DNA of 64,000 nt from Protonemura montana (taxonomy: Eukaryota; Arthropoda; Insecta; Plecoptera; Nemouridae), in the NCBI GenBank assembly GCA_947568835.1, contig OX387610.1:7589501-7653500 (forward strand), written 5' to 3'. The position numbers and the translations under genes are program-made. Shown here in pieces: positions 37,128-53,570 of this stretch (its first letter is position 1; the number at the start of each line of letters is the position of its first letter). The notes beneath the pieces are model-generated. The model was not told the origin of the DNA. It saw only the letters and a list, made by a program, of their open reading frames with translations, and ran no database searches.

Positions 37128-40100
37128 TTAGAATCGGTCATCGCTGGGAGATTCCTCATGCTCAAGATTTTTTTTGACGGTCTCTCCAAAGTCCAAGTTG
37201 TCTGTAGTAACAGCTCGCCAAACAACTTCCAGATCCTGCTCAGTTTTGCTGGAAAGAAAAGCAAAATTACATTTACACAAACCCTTCATAAGTGAAGCCA
37301 ACTGGTAAAACTACAAGGAATAAAAAGGACAAACAAAACCATGCCCAAAAAACTATTTACCCAAGTTGTCGGACTGAATTTTACAGTGATTTTAAACAAC
37401 AGTCTAACTTTTCAAAAGCTAGACATTTTAGACTTTCTATTCAGGTAAATGTTTTCAAAGTTGGCAACAAAAAAGTCTATTTAAGCAAAATTTTAGTTCA
37501 GCACTAAGTTTCACCTCTTCTCACGCTGCAGATTCTTTATGATCTCCTCCTTCTGCCTGACAAGGCTTTGCAGTCGCTGCGTTTCACGTCGATACTCGTC
37601 CTTCATTTTGTCGACGCCTGTCGTTTGCTTGGTGATCCGTTTCTCGATCGTGTCAAGCTCCTGCCACGCCTCCTGCTGCACGTCCTAGGTAACAAAATTA
37701 CTTCAATGATTGGCGGTATTTTACAGTTGCATTTTCTCGGGAAGTCCCTTGAGGCACTTTTCCTGACTAATGACAGTTAACAGTGTGTTTTTGCAGCCTG
37801 GACCCTTATTCTGGTTGCATTCCAAAACCTGCTGAATCTTCAGAGCCAGTCACAAAATCTTACTGGGCCCAGTCACTACAAAATGACACCACAGGACCTT
37901 CTACAGTTACTGAATTTTTGTCCCAAAATCAAATGTCACAGTTAAAAAAAAGGTTCTAGTGCAACTATAGCTTCTTGCAACTAATTCAGCAGTAGACTTT
38001 GCTGAATCCAGTAAAATTTAAAAAAAAATATGGCAAGATACAAACTAGCAGAGATCAGGTGAGATTAAATCTGAAGATTTTAGTCAGTGGTACAGAAAAA
38101 GATAGTTTACTAATAGGTATGTGATTATAATTATCTAATGTATTGGTTTTGACATTTAAATCCTACTATCATTAATAATCGATCGTAAGCAAATCCAGGC
38201 AAATGTACAGTTAACTATAGTATATGTCAAGTATGTTGTTTGGGAAAGTAAAGGGAGAGTATGGGACTAACGGAGCAGGAGTGGCAGGCTGCAATAGTGG
38301 AGATTCTTAGTTTAACGTTTCGGCTGTTGCCTTTATCACCGGAGATAAGAGACTCAATCTCCACTATTCCGGGGTACTTTAAAAAATGTGTCCATATAAG
38401 AAATTACAAAGTTGACTTTTCATTGATTTTGTTGGCATGTGTTGACCTTAAGCCAAAGAAAAGAGTATGCTCATATTTTATGCTCGAAGCACCACAATAT
38501 TTTCGAGAATATACTTTGATTCCATCCCTTCCCACTTACAAGTCATACTTTCTGACAATCCAAAACTGAGTAAGATGCAAAAATTACAATTTAAATAACA
38601 ATCTAATTAACAAAGTCAATAAAAGGGCAGAGCAAACAAACCTTCAGCTTGCACTTGAGCGAGCCCATACGTGTGACAAGCGTTGATCCCAGCTTGGCCA
38701 TCGTGTCGGTTTCTATCTGCTTTGAGTGAAGCTGCTTCAGAAGCTTCTCTTGATCGGTGATGAGCTCGCTGGAGAACGCGATGGCCTTCTGCAGCTGCCG
38801 TTTGACAGCGTCTTTAGCCACCTTGGTTGTCAGCCAGCGGGTTTGAGTCTCGTCGCACTTCACCTGTGTCTTGCTGGACGGGAATACGGAACGGAACGCT
38901 CAAGGAAACTATCGCAAAGCAAAAACTCAATGAAAACGGTTAAAAGGCTGCAATTACGTGTTTTTTTTTTTTAGGTTTGGTATTATATCTTTTAAATTTT
39001 AATTGTTGCAGCTTGAAAGTGCTTGTTGTAATATTTTAAAATAAAAAAATAAATTGCAATATATTCATCAGGGTAAAAAATATATGAATGGTATCAGCTG
39101 TGGTATCAGTGTAAAATAGCTTTGAGTTTATAAGTTCAAAGATAGTCTCAGGTTAAATTGTCTTAGCAAAATTTTCCTCTGATGACTAATATACCGACAA
39201 AAATGTAGGTTGGCCAGACTTGAAGTAGTTAAAATATCAATTTCAAATATCAAAAATCAAAAATAACCTTTTGTTATTTCTCACAGATTAATTGCACTTG
39301 CATTTGCACTTGCTAGTTTACATGAATTGACCACAAAAATTGATACCCATGTACTGCAATCTTGAGTTGTAATCATATAACTGTGGAGGTTAGTTAAAAT
39401 GGAAAGTTGCAAGGGTCATCGGGAGGTCACAAACATTACCACAACACATGTGTTTCAGTCTAAAGTACTGAGATTCTGTCTTAACCTATAAATCCAATGA
39501 CAGTACTTACTGCAGTAGCTTCTCGATTGTTGCAACCTGCATCTCAAGCTGCCCGTTCTCTCCCCTCAACATCATCACCTCCGCCTCCAGCTTCGGTTTC
39601 ACCTCGATCAGTTCGTCCACCTTGTTTGTCATGTAGTTCTGTTCAACGTCGTACTTTCGCTTGAGCTCCTCGAATAGGCGTCGGCATTCGGAGATCGACG
39701 CCGAGTGCACGCTGAACGGCACTTTATTCTCGGAGTCGGATTTCAGCTTCTCGTGTTCTTCGCGTAGGACCGAGTACGAGCCTTTCAGGGTCATAAGTTC
39801 GCTGCGGGTGCGGTGGTAGTTGTCTTCGAGCTCCTCATTCTTAGCAGACAACTCAGATACTGTTCGTTGAGGGAATTTTAGAGTTTTAAAATTTTCACTC
39901 ATCTAAATGCCAATAAATCATACCCAGAAGAAACGTAAAAAAATGAAATTGAGAAGTTCTGTCAGGCAATTTCAGCAACTTTACGGCTACTAAACGTTGA
40001 AACTACTTTCGAAATTCGTTTTCTAGGCCAGGATATACCTGGGCTTACATAAGAAAGCAGAATTGATAAGTTCTATCAGGCGATTTTAGCATCTCCATGG

Positions 40101-41938
40101 CTCCCAAACGTTGAATTAAATCTCATTGAATCTACTGTGCTGGACAGTATTTTTTGTTTTCAAAGCTGGCGATGGAAAATGCTATCGTACAAAAATGCAG
40201 TATTTATAAATATTTTCCACCTATTATACGGTCGAGGCGCCTGGATGTGCCTAGCTAGAGGTTCTATAAAAAAGGAAATTTTAATTTCATATTCACTCTG
40301 AGCAATGTGACAGAATTGGCTTTTAGGAAAATAAGCTGCAAAAGATGAGGTAGATACTACCTAATAGCAATAAAATCAATGTGTTTTTCTGGGCCTGATA
40401 AAAATTCTACAAGGAAAAAAATCTCCAAAATTGTATTACACATGGTCGTAGTTATACTTACGCTTGTCTCTGTAAACCGTGTGAATTTCTTTCAGTTTTT
40501 GCTTCTGCTCCTTAAGTTGACTGTTAAGAAGATCGTTTTGCTCTAAAGTCATTGAAGCATCTTGATGTAAAGCACTTAGTCCATTGGTTGTTTCTTGACT
40601 CTGTTAATTAAGAAAAAAAAATTAACTGCTGTTTTTATAAATTGCTTCTTACACTGACTCTAATGCAGTGCAAGCATGCAAGGGATATTTTACTGTAGGT
40701 GCATTACCTTTTTGTTTGTTTCTTCAATCTCTTGGTGCAATCTCTCATTCTCTGAAACAACGTCTTTACATTGCCCAATAAAATTAGTGATATCATTCTC
40801 GTAGTTGTCAATTATTTCCTCCTTCTCTTTAATCATCTGCTCATAAGCTTCCAGCAACGGGGCTAAAGTAAATCTATCTACTTGGATTCCTCCTTCGGGC
40901 ATATCTAAACGTTCGATGTTTATTTTGCTAGTGTCACCACCTAGTTTCCTCAGCCTCTCCTGGTATGCCTCTAGTTCCACACTCAGTCGATATACGACAT
41001 TCTTCAGCATAAGAATATCTTCACTGAGATCTTTGTTTTGTGCCTGAAGTGATGCAACTTTTTCTGTTTGAGTTTGACTAGCATCTGTTACTTTGTTTTG
41101 GTTGGACAGGGCCAGTGTTTTGTAGTGGTTCTTTTCTTTCTCCAGAGCTCTGTATTCATTTTCAAATTCTGTTAGCTTTTCGAGCAACATGTTCACATCT
41201 TCTTTTCGTATTGTTGTTTCTGATGTAGCTTTAATACGAAATTAAGAGACGATATTAAAATGAAACAGTAACTTAATCGTGTAGAAATATTGTTTTTAAG
41301 AGTTGTGGTTTATGATGAGAATGCCAAAAAGCTTGCAAATGTAACCCTAAAAACATCAGAACACAAGGAACCAAAGTACTTACCACTTGTAGAAGTTGTT
41401 CGAAAGCCTGAATCTTGATTTTTTGCTTCATATGAATGAATTCTTCTTGCAAGCTCTCTATTTTCCAGTATTAATCTCTCAAATTCTTTTGGAAACTGGT
41501 GCATTGCAGTAGGGATTTCTTCTGAAAGATAACCTACTGACTCAAGTTCCTCTGATAGGCTCTCCCCTTGCACGTTACCATCATGACTGTCTTCCTTTAT
41601 GTTTTTATGTTTTTTCCGTGACTTGTGACTCCGGTGCTCTTTGCCTGAACTATGAACAGAAGCTATTAACTCAATGGACTTCTCTGGTTTAGATTTTCTT
41701 CTATCAGGTTTCACAGGATGCTCGAAGTTATGGTTGCTGTGTCCACCTGGCACTTCCGAATGATAGAGTGTTTGTAATGATGTGCCTGCCGATGAATTGT
41801 CATTCATTTCACGTTTCTTCGTTTCTATCATAAACAGCGGTAATGTAGGGACCGGTAATTGTTTCCTGGTAGTTGGTTGAGACATAACGTTGGACTTAAC
41901 GAAATATTCAGCATGTTCTGCTATTTGATCCACTAGTG
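37128..41938 (-). CDS. CEP89: CEP89-like centrosomal coiled-coil protein (7 exons resolved, 5' exon not resolved)
   Basis: Exons in transcript order: 41384-41938, 40708-41228, 40462-40600, 39511-39859, 38642-38873, 37515-37684, 37128-37248 (stop TAA at 37128-37130). All have GT donors and AG acceptors, and phases agree through 694 codons. The first 180 or so residues are polar and charged with little order (Ser/Lys/His-rich). From the second exon on the protein is almost continuous coiled coil. The block LAPLLEAYEQMIKEKEEI, followed by a stretch ending NERLHQEIEE, closely matches the conserved middle of CEP89 (CCDC123). That protein sits at centriole distal appendages and is also reported in mitochondria. 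The first coding exon should lie between 41940 and 42150. An ATG at about 42086 could splice into 41938 in phase, but its donor is weak. Another long centrosomal coiled-coil protein is the main alternative. Confidence 0.75.
39185..39500 (+). repeat. Dispersed repeat family B, degenerate copy in a CEP89 intron
   Basis: TTGTTATTTCTCACAGATTA, TGAGTTGTAATCATATAACT, GTGGAGGTTAGTTAAAATGG and GGGTCATCGGGAGGTCAC follow the family order at low identity. This copy is older than the one at 25.3 kb. Confidence 0.45.
39930..40215 (+). repeat. Dispersed repeat family E, in a CEP89 intron (copy 2)
   Basis: GAGAAGTTCTGTCAGGCAAT and GATAAGTTCTATCAGGCGAT are the two sub-units, followed by TTAGCATCTCCATGGC and GGCGATGGAAAATGC as in the copy at 20.4 kb. 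Confidence 0.5.
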
Positions 41939-42525
41939 CTAGAAAGAGGAGGTTAATGGGGTTTGGTAACAATTGTAAATGCGTAGTCCTTCATCAAAAT
42001 TGCTCATTTCTCTAAAAGTAACTAACCATGGAAAAAAACTGCATCAATTTAACTATTGAACTGTTAATTTGTCTTCACTGAATGTAATTTTAAACCTCGA
42101 AAAACAAAAATGTCGACGATCTGTCATATCGCCTTTGAGATGTAAACAAAATTATTTATCGTCTATGGACACTGATTGCCACTACAGTGTTGTGTGTATA
42201 GTCGAGTTTCCCTTAATGTTGGCTAGTCTGAAAATTTAGTAAGTTTTTGTCTTCTTTGGCAAAACTCGTCTGTAATTTGGGAATAAACAACAAAAAGCTT
42301 TACTTCATGTGCATATTTGTATTAGCAAAAAGTATAAGGTAGGCGACTAGTGACTTAACTTTTCTTTCATTTTAGTAGGGATTTCAAAAAGGATATCTCA
42401 TTTTACGGCTGTGATCTATCAGTCTCTGTCTTTTAGGTTAATATTGCAACCCGTTGTCTTACAAAAGTAAACCCAGTCTAAATGTTTATGTAACATTTAA
42501 TATCCACCAGATTATTGACCCAGTA
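41939..42525. promoter_or_regulatory. Shared 5' region of the divergent CEP89/KANSL3 pair
   Basis: The first resolved CEP89 coding exon begins at 41938 going left and the KANSL3 ATG is at 42526 going right, so at most about 590 bp holds both promoters, both 5' UTRs and the missing first CEP89 exon. I see no clear TATA box, CpG-rich block or known operator. A shared bidirectional promoter is inferred from the head-to-head layout only. Confidence 0.45.
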
Positions 42526-45500: not shown

Positions 45501-48500
45501 ATGCTTATATCATTCAGCACAGAAAAATGTGTCTGTTTAGAGTACCATGTTTCCAATGGACCAACGTTTTGTTTTCTTTCTCAGAAACGTCTTCCTCATG
45601 GACCAGTCTTCCTGGTAGTGCCAGACGACCATAGAATGCATCGAAGGCGACGGTTCATTCTCCTCACATCAATGCTCAGTCAAATGGGACAAACGTTCAC
45701 AGTGGAACTCACCCAAGGTACTACGCCATTTCGTTGATGGAAAGCTTAATGCTGCGAATCACATAGCTGAGATGGGAAGTTTTTGCGTGACTAACAACCA
45801 GTGTGACCAGTAGGCTGCTTCTGTAATAAATGGTTATTATAAGTACTAGACCCTTGTCTAGTTTGCTTACGAAAGCTTCCATTGGTATTTTTGCTAACCA
45901 TGAAAACAACGAAGCATAAGCGAGTCAATGCTAGATTTGATGGTTGACATCCATGGAGCTGCTGTAATTGTCTGACAGAGCGTCTTGATTCAGCTAAGTT
46001 ATAGTTTCTTTAAGGATTAGAACGCCCAAAAAATAGCCGACATAATGCTATTTCAAAAGATTCATCCATTAAGAGCTAATAGACAAGAAGGCTGTGTGTA
46101 GGCATTTCCGTTGGCAGTTCTAACATGGTGAAAATACTTTATTACTGTATTTAAAGTCGCAACTAGTAGGGCTCTTTATTATCTATCATCTTGCTCGAGT
46201 TCTTTTTTTAGCAAACGTGCTTTACGATAATTGGGGTTGCTAGATCGTAAAGGCCATGCCTCTGGCAGAGTAAAAAGAATGCAAACCAGAAAATGCTGGA
46301 ACAAAACCATCTGAGCACTTCTCTTGAGCTATTTAAGCAAACATTTTAAACAACGAAGTGTTTACTTTTCTGTTACACTTCCTTTTCTTTCCAAATTCAA
46401 AACGCAAACGCATTTTCCCACCAGCACCTGACGGCACTGCAATATCCGCCGCGCTGGACCACATGACGGCACAGACCAGAAGCCGGTTGCACGAAATCCG
46501 TTCCAAGTTGGGTGGCGGCCGACCGCTGGTGCTCGTCGGTCTTGGTGCCGGAGCCGCTCTGGTAGCGCTGATCGCCATGATCGAACCGGTCACCGCGATT
46601 GTGTGCCTCGGCTTTCCAGCGGCCACTAACAAGGGGAGCAGGGGACAGCACGACGACACCATACTGAATCTACGCTGTCCGGTGTTGTTTTTCACTGGCG
46701 AGCATTCCAACACGGCCAGGTAGGAGCGATTAACAAGTTCTTAAACAATATGTAAAGCTAAAATGTGAATGTGGTGTCAAGAAGTTCGATAATATTGTGG
46801 TGAAGAAGGGAAGATAGAGGAAGCGCAATTTACCGGAGATTAAGAAGGCGTCGCGTGATGCACTTGTCTGAATTTAACGTTTCTGCAAATATCTTTTGTC
46901 ATTGGTAGAGAGAGATGATCTGATCAGTCATCTTCCTTAACCGGATACTAAGGTCACTCGAAATCGGTATCAATTCGTAATCCAATACCACGGATGCAAC
47001 CAGGGTTATTATCATGATGATCGCGTCAAAATTCTGTGCACAAACTTAACATCAAAAGCCACAAAATACGAGTGATAGCAATTAATTTTGAATCCACAAA
47101 CGTTTGAGTGTACCAGATTATTTCTTTTGAGAGAAGGTTACTATGCTGTATACCCAGGATTACACCACTTGCCTATCACTTACTTGCTTGTTCCCAATCG
47201 TTTTGAATACCATTTAGCGCCCAGTTGAACTTTATTTACGTGGATTCTTTCTTGGCAGTGTTTCGCAGTTGGACACCCTGCGTGGCCGATTGGAGGTGGT
47301 CTCGCAGCAGGTGGTGGTCGGGTTGACCGACGACCTCCTCGTGATGCCAAGGCAGAGGATGTTACAACTCGGAGTTACTCAAGCCATGGTCGACAAGTCA
47401 ATTCTCGTGAGTAACTCTAATGCTACCAGGTTCCCTTTCAAATGATGCTGATTGGGTTATTTAAAATTGCTAACCATACTTGCAGCACAACGCTAACAAT
47501 AAGATTTCGCTATAAATCCATGCTGTCGAGAGGTTGATAATGATAATCAAGGTGAATAAAGTTGCTGTACTAAATTTCGTCCCTCCAACCTCTCTCCCGA
47601 ACAATACTGATCATGTATCACCCATCCAATGTCTGACCCAAACTTGCCAGCATGCCAAACCGTTAAATTGAAAGGTGAAGTCATTAAAATATAAAAGCGA
47701 TAATCAAAGTTTTCTTCTACATTGTCTTTGCAGGTGGAGATCCATACGTTCCTGGGCCAGATACTGACAAGTCCGCCGACAGTGATAACCCACTCTACGG
47801 CGCAGCCCGTGCCGCGCAGAGTCAAACCAGAAGTCTTGGACAAACCGGAGTTGAAGATTGCATCGCGGCGATATGTCAAAAAGCCTGCTAAATTCCCAGG
47901 TAATGCATCTTCAATTAGGACAGAAAAAGTAAGTAAGGACAAAGACGGAATGAATTTTTCATTTGATGTTAAAAGCATTTGTCGTATACACTCCTGCCAG
48001 AATCGCAAACCCACAATCTCTGGGGATTTTTTTTGCATTCGGGTCATTCCATATCAAGTGCCCACACTCAAAACCTTCACTATCTCAGAACTTGACGAAA
48101 TTTTCAGGAGGGTTAGAACACCGGAAATAAAAAATCTCTTTTAAAGTTTTTTTCCATATGTCTAGCGGTTTGCCCGTGGCAGGGGATGGAAAAATAAAAT
48201 ATTTTACTTTTTGCCCCGCACGGCCATTCACTATATTCACTCTAGCGTTTGAACAAATAAACTTAAAACAATGGGATTAGTTCTAAAATGATAATCGTGC
48301 TTTCATTAACAAGAAAAAATGCATAAATTGCTTACTTATCAAGTTTAGGGGTAGAAAAAATCCACCCTTAAATTTCAACCCTTAATAACTCGAGAAGTAA
48401 TATTTTTTTTTTTTTTTTGTTTTGTTGTGAAGCATCTCCTGTCTATTATCTTTCCATGAAAAAAAAATTAATCATTAACAGCCGTATGATCAGAAGTTAT

Positions 48501-51500
48501 GAGATTTTTATTGTATAAATGTGTGTGCATTTAGTTGTGTTTCTGCAAGTCTGTTAGCATGGTCCATGCAAATCACCCGTAAATTGATAGATTATATAAT
48601 TTTTCAGTTTAAAAATTGTGTGTAAGTACTACAAAGATTCTTTTTACTCACTCATTTCTTCGTTTCACTCTGACCTATCACTCTGGCTTCTTCGAACAAC
48701 GGCGAGGAGGAGAACACCCGCGTGGCTACTGAGTGCTCAGACACGGGTACGAAGCAATGCAGTTTTTGCGTGCCGGGAATTGGCCGGGATGACGCAAATC
48801 GTGTGGCTAGCACCTGTTCTGTGTCTTGGTGCTCCTCAATAGTTCCGAATGTGAAGTTGATGGTCGGGATGGCTTCGACCGCCCAATCGAAGAGTTGCCG
48901 GGGTGTTATTATTTGCGACTCGTAGGGGCGCTGAAGACTCGCCCGCGCTGCCAGCCGCTTGACCGTCCCTCCGACGCCGTCGCAGGCGCTCTTCCCATGT
49001 GACGTCGCCGTGAAATGCCACTCCACGTCGGCCCCAAAGTCTCTTTGATAGTGGCACAAGTTGGCAAAATTTTTCCTATTTTTATATTGCGAGGCTGCCC
49101 CATCAGAAAAATAGAACATCTTCTTTATGGTCTGAAATTTATTGTGCAAAAAGCTCACGAGTTTTTTTATGAATAGATGCACTGCGACAGTGTTGTGGAT
49201 CAAACTCTCGGAAATTACAACAAAGCTGATGTGGCGCTCTTCCCCGCCCTCTTTGTAATATGCCACGAAGGGGTGGATGGTGGCGGACGCATTGTTCCAG
49301 TGGAACCCCTGGGCCTCGTCTTGTAGCACGAACGCATAGTTTTCGGCAAAATCACAGATCACCAAAAACTCGCCGGGCAGGAGACCGCACTTGATGTCCG
49401 ATTGGTGCGAAGATTGTTTTTTAGCAATAAAAGAGTGGCGGCACAGAGCAACTAATTTTGCACAACAACTGTCCACGAATTCCTCGGATGAATCGATGTG
49501 CGTTTGCAGGGTGCATCGGTCGGTGCTCTCCCACTGCTTGTAGATAACATTGTCCACCATTTCGTCGTCCAGCAGTTGCGTGAGGCGCTCCTTTAACGGC
49601 TCGATGCCCGGGCACTCCTCACACTCGCCTAGATGGCATTCGGGGAGGGGACTGTCGCAGACCAACTGCTCAAGGCAGTCGTGGTAAGATGTTATCGGAT
49701 AAGATTGGTCCACTGTCAACTTCGTCAAGTCGGCACCGATGATCATTAGCTTGACGTTTTGGTGGATAGTGCACACGCACACCGAATGAGTCCCACTGGC
49801 ACCAGGCAACACACAGTTCTTCGGCCGCAGCTCTGCAAATTTTGAAAATCCACTCTTTTATCCGACCGATGCACCCTGCAAACGCACATCGATTCATCCG
49901 AGGAATTCGTGGACAGTTGTTGTGCAAAATTAGTTGCTCTGTGCCGCCACTCTTTTATTGCTAAAAAACAATCTTCGCACCAATCGGACATCAAGTGCGG
50001 TCTCCTGCCCGGCGAGTTTTTGGTGATCTGTGATTTTGCCGAAAACTATGCGTTCGTGCTACAAGACGAGGCCCAGGGGTTCCACTGGAACAATGCGTCC
50101 GCCACCATCCACCCCTTCGTGGCATATTACAAAGAGGGCGGGGAAGAGCGCCACATCAGCTTTGTTGTAATTTCCGAGAGTTTGATCCACAACACTGTCG
50201 CAGTGCATCTATTCATAAAAAAACTCGTGAGCTTTTTGCACAATAAATTTCAGACCATAAAGAAGATGTTCTATTTTTCTGATGGGGCAGCCTCGCAATA
50301 TAAAAATAGGAAAAATTTTGCCAACTTGTGCCACTATCAAAGAGACTTTGGGGCCGACGTGGAGTGGCATTTCACGGCGACGTCACATGGGAAGAGCGCC
50401 TGCGACGGCGTCGGAGGGACGGTCAAGCGGCTGGCAGCGCGGGCGAGTCTTCAGCGCCCCTACGAGTCGCAAATAATAACACCCCGGCAACTCTTCGATT
50501 GGGCGGTCGAAGCCATCCCGACCATCAACTTCACATTCGGAACTATTGAGGAGCACCAAGACACAGAACAGGTGCTAGCCACACGATTTGCGTCATCCCG
50601 GCCAATTCCCGGCACGCAAAAACTGCATTGCTTCGTACCCGTGTCTGAGCACTCAGTAGCCACGCGGGTGTTCTCCTCCTCGCCGTTGTTCGAAGAAGCC
50701 AGAGTGATAGGTCAGAGTGAAACGAAGAAATGAGTGAGTAAAAAGAATCTTTGTAGTACTTACACACAATTTTTAAACTGAAAAATTATATAATCTATCA
50801 ATTTACGGGTGATTTGCATGGACCATGCTAACAGACTTGCAGAAACACAACTAAATGCACACACATTTATACAATAAAAATCTCATAACTTCTGATCATA
50901 CGGCTGTTAATGATTAATTTTTTTTTCATGGAAAGATAATAGACAGGAGATGCTTCACAACAAAACAAAAAAAAAAAAAAAATATTACTTCTCGAGTTAT
51001 TAAGGGTTGAAATTTAAGGGTGGATTTTTTCTACCCCTAAACTTGATAAGTAAGCAATTTATGCATTTTTTCTTGTTAATGAAAGCACGATTATCATTTT
51101 AGAACTAATCCCATTGTTTTAAGTTTATTTGTTCAAACGCTAGAGTGAATATAGTGAATGGCCGTGCGGGGCAAAAAGTAAAATATTTTATTTTTCCGGT
51201 GTTCTAACCCTCCTGAAAATTTCGTCAAGTTCTGAGATAGTGAAGGTTTTGAGTGTGGGCACTTGATATGGAATGACCCATTCACGATATTAACACACTT
51301 TGGTACTTTTATCAAGCGTGGGTCGAGTAAAAAAAATGTTTTATTTTCCTTTCACTCTACCATCTGGATCATATCAGTGATTTAGTGAGCTCTTTTATTT
51401 CCATTTATACAATTTTACAAATATCTTACATTTTTCTACCCTTCACGTCATGTTCATCTACTTCAGTTTTTAATGAAAGCTAAAAAGTTTTCAAATAATT

Positions 51501-53570
51501 AAAATTAAGTTAAATCTTGCCACTCGTACTTCTGGTGCATTTCCTCTCTAGAGCTGCTGAATCATTGTTTGATAATCATTGACAGGAAAACGATAGTTGA
51601 TTAATCAAGTCATTCCATAAATCTCCAGGTCGCTCTTGCCTAACCTGGGTGCATGATATTGACTCTGTAGCTGACTCTTTCCCCGGTCTCTCCAGGTAAC
51701 GCAGGTGCCCGGAAATACGGGCCTCGAACGAGCATCATTACGTCGCCCACCAAAGTGACAATATCAGGAGACATGTCGGGCAAGGACACTTTCATCATCG
51801 GTGAGTACTGCAAACCTTTCGGCGTCACAACCAGCATTTGGATATTCCGTTGCTCTGATTGGGAAGTTCTAATTGGGGAGAAATGAAAGCAAATATCTTA
51901 CTGAGATTGCAAAAGCTGGTTGCAATAGATGCAGAGATGTGCACCATGATTAATCTACATGAATTCTTCAAGGTAATGTAGCACAAACTTTGTTCAACTC
52001 TTAGCATCTGGCGTAACTAGCTTTTTCACCCTCGGTAAGTTATGTATAAGGTAAGTTGAGGTAGTTATTGCCGATTGTGAAAGACGAAGAAAAGCAGTAC
52101 AACCTCATTCATTCTCACATACACATTGCAAAAGCCGGAACTTTTAAAAAAGCCTCTCTCTTACCTTTTGCTACCGGCTATTTTTTTGTATCTCGGCAAG
52201 TTTTGGTTCCTTATTTAATTTTTCTGAGTCTTTACCAGCCTTTCGGCACTCCTATATTTTTGTTTGAACTTGTTTTAATTTCTTTTTTGTAGTTTAATTT
52301 AACTCGAAATTTATAACAGGAAACGCTCACAAATTCTTTAATGTGTGCCGGATAAATTCTATGATCCAATGGCAAGTATAGGTTGTATCAAACTGGGTGT
52401 AATTGACGAGTCCATTCCTTTCAGGCGGCCGTAGAAAGCTGGCCATCGGCAGCCTGAATGAGAGCCCAACGAAAGAAGGAAGCCTGAAAGATGCTCCCGG
52501 CTTGTGGAAGAGTCGGATCAAGACCCCAATGCTGTCTCCGGCACCAGACCGGACCAAGCTGATAGCAGTAAGAGTCTCGAGTCTTGACCTGTATACCTAT
52601 GAACTTTCTTCCACTTTCACTACCTTGGAGGGATTGTTGCCATATCAAGAGGCAGCTTAACAAAACAAAGTGGAAATGGTCTATTGAAAATAAAAAAATA
52701 AAAAAAAGTTGAATGGTTCTGTGCTTTTTAGTGCTAAATGCTGTTCTACTGGTAATGCTAGATTTCACCAAAAATGTATTAACGCTCAAAACCACACCAT
52801 GGGCTGGAATGCAGATTCTTGTGTAGAAATTCTTGCATTCTTGCAAAAAACTTGATGATATCTAATCTGGCCCTTTCACTCAAATCTAGAAAAGAAGATT
52901 TCTTAAACATGTCTCATACAGCAGGCAAAACTTAATCAACGTCTCTTTTCAGCCGTCCCCGTCACCATCAGTCCAACGCAGCCTGACCTTCACCACCGTG
53001 ACCAACATAACATCCGTGCCGCAAGTCCCCAGCTCTGGTGCAGCGGCCTCGTTTTTCGCCACACCAACCCTCCCGCCGCGAACTACGACCACCACACGTT
53101 TCACCGGCGACTCCAGCAAACTACTTACAGTGCTCACATCGCGGCCAAATCGCCCGCTGTCGTTCACCTCGGCAAATCCACCTCGAAAACCGCAGCCTCT
53201 CACTGCGGACAACATCCTCAATCTGCCGATCATATTTGCGCCAGACGATGAACCGGCTAAGGAGACTCCGATTACGATACCAATGATGGTCTCCTCTCCG
53301 GGAACGTCTAGAGACCAGCAGGAGTTGAAGCTGGTCAACAAGTTCGAATTCAGTAAGCCGCAGCCAGGCATCAAGTACAGGAAGATTTTCCTGACGCGTT
53401 TGGGTCCAGACAAATCGAGCGGGACCGGGCAGACGCCGAGGATGCTGGGTCCAATCGGGCAAGTTTCTAGAAATCCCGGACAGAAAGGCCGACCGCCAAA
53501 ACTGTCGGGGACTTTCAATGAAGACACTTTTGAAGTGATAATGGATAGCGATCCAAAAGAGAGTCCGTGA
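42526..53570 (+). CDS. KANSL3: KANSL3/NSL3-like subunit of the NSL histone acetyltransferase complex (12 exons)
   Basis: Exons read by splice sites and frame: 42526-42874, 42952-43138, 43223-43360, 44105-44366, 44902-45066, 45585-45717, 46425-46719, 47259-47406, 47734-47899, 51696-51800, 52425-52567, 52953-53570. They sum to 2,709 nt, one open frame of 902 residues with matching phases, close to the vertebrate protein's length from memory. Recognition rests on the alpha/beta-hydrolase-like core: LVLVGLGAGAALVALI (around residue 450), AIVCLGFP, CPVLFFTGEHS, VVVGLTDDLL and GVTQAMVDKSIL. These match the order of segments in KANSL3. The family is a nuclear scaffold subunit of the KAT8/MOF NSL complex, which acetylates histone H4 at promoters. 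The position expected for a nucleophile serine reads G-L-G-A-G, so hydrolase activity is unlikely. The C-terminal third is Ser/Thr/Pro-rich and looks disordered. The start at 42526 lies 15 nt after a possible acceptor, so a 5' UTR exon may exist. Confidence 0.88.
43786..44070 (+). repeat. 5S-derived SINE in KANSL3 intron 3
   Basis: CAGCAACTTCATTCACCTTG, GGTTTTGTGGAGGAATCCTG, CTTGGTGCTTTTCGTCAGGA and CGTTGTCAAAACAGTGCGTC reproduce the family body and tail. It ends only about 35 bp before the acceptor of exon 4 at 44105. Confidence 0.65.
47505..47665 (-). repeat. 5S-derived SINE fragment in KANSL3 intron 8
   Basis: Reverse strand: ATAAATCCATGCTGTCGAGA, then CCTCCAACCTCTCTCCCGAA and TATCACCCATCCAATGTCTG. 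Both ends are truncated. Confidence 0.55.
48652..49812 (-). pseudogene. Transposase-like ORF, left arm of the palindrome (N-terminally truncated)
   Basis: An open frame of 386 codons runs from the first internal ATG. The same frame continues upstream through KSGFSKFAELRPKNC and meets a TAA close to the palindrome junction at 49862, so the true N-terminus has been replaced by the inverted copy. Likely features are a Cys/His-rich stretch near residues 50-70 (CHLGECEEC), an acidic motif VICDFAENYAF with Asp at about residue 154, and FYFSDGAASQYKN with Asp at about residue 237. The two Asp motifs resemble the first two acids of a DDE/D integrase-like core. This is a family resemblance remembered from animal transposons, not a demonstrated assignment. 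I do not name the superfamily. The protein probably acted on the inverted repeats at 48041 and 51279. Confidence 0.75.
49909..50733 (+). pseudogene. Transposase-like ORF, right arm of the palindrome (inverted duplicate of the C-terminal part)
   Basis: 274 codons, identical after the first residue to residues 114-386 of the minus-strand ORF in the left arm. It keeps both Asp motifs (Asp at about 42 and 125). The ATG is formed because the coding match starts inside the duplicated part, so the start is accidental and the protein is a fragment. No stop or frameshift separates the arms, which points to a young duplication or to ongoing gene conversion between the arms. It lies in sense orientation relative to KANSL3. 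Confidence 0.75.

Follow-up and report, generated by a model that had tools for sequence, protein, structure and literature searches.

Mu killer, a derivative of the maize transposon MuDR, has both of its terminal inverted repeats (TIRs) from the mudrA side of the parent together with an inverted duplication of mudrA (PMC3440606). In Galileo, a Drosophila transposon of the P superfamily, the TIRs have been lengthened by recruited internal sequence, and its authors proposed that when one TIR is repaired on the other and copying runs past it, internal sequence may be recruited (PMC3573991). Galileo group E has 22 copies with the recruited region in the TIR (PMC3573991), and amplified TIR extension is therefore already known. 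Galileo TIRs of 1.2–1.6 kb have been reported (PMC3573991, PMC4168063) and its target-site duplications (TSDs) are 7–8 bp (PMC4168063); the TSDs of Sola2 are 4 bp and mostly A/T (PMC3627910). Here we describe an inverted-repeat element of 3,239 bp from Protonemura montana (Plecoptera; Nemouridae). It lies at positions 48041-51279 of a stretch of 64,000 nucleotides, called the window throughout (assembly GCA_947568835.1, contig OX387610.1, positions 7,589,501 to 7,653,500). With a rough probability of 0.78, we read this element as a copy of a lineage of non-autonomous, mobile palindromes that derives, by the steps set out below, from a 3,780-bp DNA transposon with long TIRs.

The termini of the window element are GGGTCATTCC.../...GGAATGACCC, and a 4-bp duplication, ATTC, stands at each side. 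These bounds, ends and duplication agree with an initial annotation made from the letters of the window, as do its arms of about 1.4 kb mirrored around 49692/49693. Positions 48188-49523 and 49862-51197 are complementary at 100% over 1,336 nt around a spacer of 338 nt, and the repeat search pairs the outer 100 nt as well. Both arms encode the transposase C-terminus, as had been noted, in frames of 386 and 274 amino acids (aa). The annotation also called the element complete, which it is not: both arms of copy L014 (3,304 bp) contain 65 bp, at arm positions 83-147, that are missing from the right arm here, and the window copy is a deleted member of the palindrome lineage. Judged from the source element, the TIR proper takes up approximately the first 506 bp of each arm, the remainder of the arm being internal sequence.

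The element was compared with its relatives in the genome to which the window belongs, which measures 258.5 Mb in 34 contigs. In the palindromes found there, two left ends face each other as mirror images. Each comprises the TIR and a portion of the transposase gene from its 3' half, and the N-terminal half of the transposase is missing. A 24-mer diagnostic of the lineage, carrying the bases 119T and 121T, gave 77 exact matches, which form 33 inverted pairs and 11 singles. Four length classes hold 28 of the 33 pairs and five pairs are of private length, while none of the 33 is at the spacing of a full-length element. Class A (3,304 bp, reduced to 3,239 bp in the window by the 65-bp deletion) has 10 exact junctions in the genome, and the 17 exact junction matches of class B (3,205 bp) fall on 16 loci, of which some have been rearranged. 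Six pairs at one spacing represent class D (2,723 bp, with 1,346-bp arms) and six at another represent class E (3,090 bp, with 1,467-bp arms), one copy of each having been read base by base (L043 for D, L044 for E). The six D places also agree in the spacing of their 1071T sites (611 bp), and the six E places in the spacings of their 1071T (980 bp) and 1425C (262 bp) sites. Among the singles, four are two-armed copies in which the other marker is mutated or deleted (the window copy, L016, L017 and L025), another two, L022 and L049, have both arms but are rearranged or damaged, and four are truncated one-armed copies (L013, L042, L046, L048). The lineage occupies at least 43 loci, 39 of them two-armed; since only exact matches to the 24-mer were counted, the true number may be higher. 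A 1071T probe, its matches assigned by eye, marks 42 of the 43 loci, L048 being too short for it, and outside these loci it marks a single copy, L052. A left-side probe gave 145 matches in the genome and was not used for pair counts. The eleventh single, L047 (G000:C14:617796-621796), was dropped from the count: it is an older relative, with a likeness of 88% over 256 bp, and it carries the 119T/121T marker of the palindromes.

As the initial annotation had proposed, these elements moved as whole palindromes. Matching 4-bp duplications, at unlike sites, flank 22 of the 23 palindromic copies with both ends readable; L022, whose right end is damaged, and L049, whose right end is missing, stand outside the 23. 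The lineage has transposed in palindromic form at many sites, and because so large a share of the readable copies have matching duplications at unlike sites, chance or an assembly chimera is an unlikely source of the observation. The duplications are mainly A/T with no clear motif, and five class-A copies have no differences over 3,304 bp. Fold-back artefacts of long reads are known in general to occur, but an artefact of reading or assembly would mirror the unique flank as well. Here the flanks differ and the TSDs match, and exact junctions recur across the genome, so that we give this explanation next to no credence.

The termini of the palindromes are shared with a partner element that has an intact open reading frame (ORF). 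A left-half query gave near-identical matches on many contigs (among the best 40 of 542 candidates scored). Two source copies, L037 and L041, are each 3,780 bp long with matching TSDs (CTCC and GCAT, respectively), and their TIRs are alike over about 506 bp, with an identical stretch of 476 bp in L037 and 361 bp in L041. L037 contains a single ORF of 697 aa, reading from right to left. Among the best 64 of 474 candidates scored with this protein, 42 places equal its full self-score of 1603.3 bits, and seven further places cover all 697 residues with no stop at a slightly lower score. A 30-mer taken from mid-element in the source matches exactly at 52 sites in the genome. In four full-length copies (L037, L041, L051 and L052) both ends could be read, and all four are flanked by matching 4-bp duplications. 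From these sequences the full-length family appears very young and is probably active.

Searches for relatives of the transposase placed it in no family. Pfam at E 0.001 gave none for the 697-aa protein, and no direct comparison with P transposases was made. Pfam searches with the window ORF gave nothing above cut-off, the PDB sequence search returned one match at E 0.83 that was not useful, and a scan of IMG/VR viral contigs gave nine pattern matches and no relative. A literature search for the terminal 10- and 11-mers returned, among the matches listed, none about transposons. A single-sequence AlphaFold model of the window ORF has a mean pLDDT (predicted local distance difference test) of 36, at which its order of strands and helices carries no weight. 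The 42 full-score places, taken with the lack of a Pfam or PDB relative, point to a very recent burst and possibly to horizontal arrival.

Compared with L041, one copy of each class (L014 for A, L018 for B, L043 for D and L044 for E) has 119T, 121T, 230A and 1071T in both arms. A fifth marker base, 1425C, is in both arms in A and E and on the spacer side in B, and D ends before this position. The arms of the same copies match exactly over 1,483, 1,397, 1,346 and 1,467 bp, respectively; other palindrome copies show single base changes on one arm. L037 and L041 have none of the five marker bases, and at most two are found in any of five full-length-type copies (L037, L041, L050, L051, L052). No full-length founder with the whole haplotype was found with the 1071T probe, whose 81 matches are all at palindrome loci except for L052, or with a 1425C probe, whose 46 matches, assigned by eye, are all at palindrome loci except for L050 and L051. 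Several independent foldings of full-length copies, in place of one founder with later revision of its center, could be argued from the four unlike centers and from the presence of some marker bases in L050, L051 and L052 as well. The bases shared by copies of all four classes, their scarcity in the full-length-type copies and the absence of a 119T/121T pair at full-length spacing make such repeated folding clearly improbable. Parts of the haplotype are not all private, and one folding followed by changes at the center seems simpler than four foldings.

The centers differ between classes in a manner that suggests how they came about. The source L037 reads AAAATCCTATTTTTTTATTAGG at about 1804-1825. 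At the B junction, AAAATCC passes into the inverted arm at about 1397, with CC common to both sides. The A junction has 12 nt of inverted arm (CCACTCTTTTAT) and then jumps to 1483; in the window these 12 nt form spacer segment 49850-49861, recur in the arm and are absent from the corresponding place in the source element. A 4-nt filler, GATT, resembling adjacent sequence, marks the D junction, and the E junction holds 12 nt starting with CGATGTGCG, which recurs nearby. To judge from their sequence, the palindrome centers look like repair scars with microhomology or short filler. Theta-type end joining typically leaves microhomology and short templated fillers behind, reportedly also after P-element excision in Drosophila. 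Locus L039 (G000:C1:3767000-3772500) contains two B junctions head to head with identical arms of 1,644 bp and is a second-order palindrome, folded a second time, while L040, L045 and L049 have further private rearrangements.

Within the lineage, the somewhat likelier order is that B is older and that A arose from it when the right arm was lengthened from 1397 to 1483 with an arm as template. A single switch suffices for B and two are needed for A, and the poly-T tract at 362-363 is short in the source, in B (bar one arm of L021) and in E, long in A and D, and mixed in L025. The tract is a weak marker, however, and the reverse order works too, since removing from A the 97 bp that separate two direct repeats of 12 bp gives B.

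Exchange between the arms is suggested by base changes found on one arm only. With the left and right arms of class-B copies set by the orientation of the spacer, a change at arm position 13 is on a single arm in seven of the nine class-B copies read (left in five, right in two), and a change at arm position 127 is on a single arm in three of nine class-A copies (left in two, right in one). Since such changes are found on either side, they point to inversion of the spacer by inter-arm recombination or to end conversion, with recurrent mutation at positions 13 and 127 as a possible alternative. The one-armed copies were also considered as carriers of a signature of breakage at the center. L042 continues for about 17 nt beyond the class-B junction before it stops; the corresponding distance is about 45 nt from the class-D junction in L046 and 311 nt from the class-A junction in L013, and L048 retains 528 nt of one end; these four copies are too few to count as evidence.

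The initial annotation had attributed the palindrome to an aberrant repair event that extended the terminal segments to about 1.4 kb and replaced the N-terminal half of the transposase. The extension and the loss are borne out by the source element with its 506-bp TIRs and 697-aa ORF, and repair as their cause is what we infer. During repair, once the element had been excised or broken, its right-TIR end would be recopied from the left TIR, which is the same sequence inverted. A strand copied from the right end could re-anneal to the left TIR over about 500 bp and continue into the gene, and copying past the left TIR into the gene would make both ends of the element 'left' ends. The palindrome would then be mobilized in trans by the transposase of the full-length copies; as the palindromes have two intact termini and only the C-terminal half of the gene, they presumably move with that enzyme. 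Their center would be fragile, each break or interrupted repair being closed by microhomology or by polymerase-theta-type joining with short fillers. Repeated closure could give rise to the center classes and to the second-order palindrome L039, and each new center would then be multiplied by transposition.

Gap repair that copies one end over the other has, in our view, an even chance of being the founding route. The palindrome might instead have been founded by fold-back priming, in which the 3' end of an internal break folds on a short inverted match and copies the left half with its flank, after which transposase excises the palindrome at its two left ends. Junction B accords with this route in showing one switch, a 2-bp match (CC) and additional partial similarity of T-rich sequence, and with later excision the final element would be the same. 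Fold-back priming has no need of the 506-bp TIRs, though, and no founder flanked by an inverted left flank came to light; we consider this route possible but rather unlikely. Reciprocal palindromes, with two right ends, were sought with a right-side probe, whose 55 matches include no inverted pairs within 8 kb.

Several points weigh against deriving the mobile palindromes from the long-TIR transposon in this way. The founder locus was not found in the genome, and the gap-repair founding step was not seen. The flanks of L024 are unlike (ATGT/ATTA), and L022, with its damaged right end, has no matching duplication. Members of classes D and E other than the copies read are known from identical probe spacings only. 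In addition, L052 has 119T and 1071T, and L050, whose right end was not found, and L051 have 1425C; with marker bases present singly or in twos in these copies, the founder's own lineage would be missing, extinct or unread.

A further reading makes of the lineage a mobile Mu killer, in which host read-through of a dispersing palindrome, for instance at the putative intron that holds the window copy, would yield double-stranded RNA about 1.4 kb long and directed against the transposase gene, a spreading silencer of its own source. We regard this as speculative and doubtful. A promoter in the TIR was rejected as the driver of a hairpin RNA: within 700 bases of the right end of L041, TATAAA occurs once, at 663, which is beyond the TIR, and host read-through is therefore the likelier source of any such RNA. 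The palindromes nonetheless make it testable whether transposons create mobile hairpin sources against themselves. They also offer a record of a long-TIR transposon becoming a fold-back element, with source, offspring, four center classes and broken copies at almost no divergence, and their scar-like centers would show a way in which an inverted duplication gets revised. To judge from class D, with one copy read and five more places of equal spacing, a nuclear genome may allow long near-perfect palindromes to persist and to spread.

The copy of class D that was read, L043 (G000:C1:13656450-13659373), is a near-perfect palindrome of 2.7 kb with 1,346-bp arms and a center of about 31 nt; five more places have the same probe spacing.

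In the window, splice signals and a phase-0 frame across positions 47929-52952, both read by eye, support the annotation's placement of the element inside a host intron, here a putative intron of 5.0 kb in a gene on the + strand, with the element 112 bp past the donor (Table 1). Pfam at E 0.01 found no domain in two ORFs tested at this putative host gene. Elsewhere in the window, two of three ORFs at 39507-41972 on the - strand have weak, below-cut-off Pfam coiled-coil matches, and a coiled-coil gene may have its exons there. Between 2556 and 45383 lie sixteen diverged inverted-repeat pairs (64-160 nt, 74-89%), likely older dispersed repeats.

Table 1. Features of the palindromic element and its putative host gene, in window positions.
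Feature	Positions	Strand	Basis
Putative host exon (TTTGCAG / AAA-GTAAGT)	47734..47928	+	splice signals by eye
Left target-site duplication, ATTC	48037..48040		read from sequence
Left arm, 1,483 bp: TIR-equivalent (~48041-48546) and part of the 3' half of the transposase gene	48041..49523	+	repeat search, source comparison
Open frame, 386 aa: C-terminal part of the 697-aa source protein	48652..49812	-	ORF and protein search
Spacer, 338 bp	49524..49861	+	repeat search; spacer present in other copies
Right arm, 1,418 bp: left arm inverted, without 65 bp at 51197/51198	49862..51279	-	repeat search, L014 comparison
Open frame, 274 aa: same C-terminus of the transposase, in the right arm	49909..50733	+	ORF
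Right target-site duplication, ATTC	51280..51283		read from sequence
Putative last host exon (TTTTCAG / stop TGA), in phase with exon 47734..47928	52953..53570	+	splice signals by eye

Foldback-type elements such as Tetris and Tm1 resemble the lineage as inverted-repeat transposons with a spacer. The TIRs of Foldback-type elements are internally repetitive, whereas the arms here are unique transposon sequence. With Sola2 the likeness lies in the 4-bp, A/T-rich TSD. The same 4-bp TSD sets the lineage apart from Galileo and the P superfamily, with their 7–8 bp. The recruited stretches named for Galileo are 69 and 121 bp, while those here are about 0.84–0.98 kb and mostly transposase gene. The series of revised centers and the second-order palindrome described here have no counterpart in the part of the Galileo text examined (PMC3573991). 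With Mu killer the likeness is one of structure: there the transposase-gene side supplies both ends, and two partial copies of the transposase end in an inverted duplication, with the inversion about 1.3 kb into the gene; here too the ends come from one element end and the transposase duplication is inverted. Mu killer, however, is treated in its report as one locus that acts via RNA (PMC3440606), whereas this lineage, known from DNA sequence, comprises at least 43 loci with TSDs and several center classes and belongs to another transposon. Among the titles and abstract openings listed from the open-licence PMC literature, no report of an amplified Mu killer-like form was found. As TIR extension in Galileo (PMC3573991) and the Mu killer structure (PMC3440606) were already published, the new fold-back class suggested by the initial annotation finds no support in that form. 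The lineage has the known TIR-extended, Mu killer-type architecture, and what is unusual about it is the depth to which its arms reach into the gene, the repeated revision of its center and the palindrome of second order.

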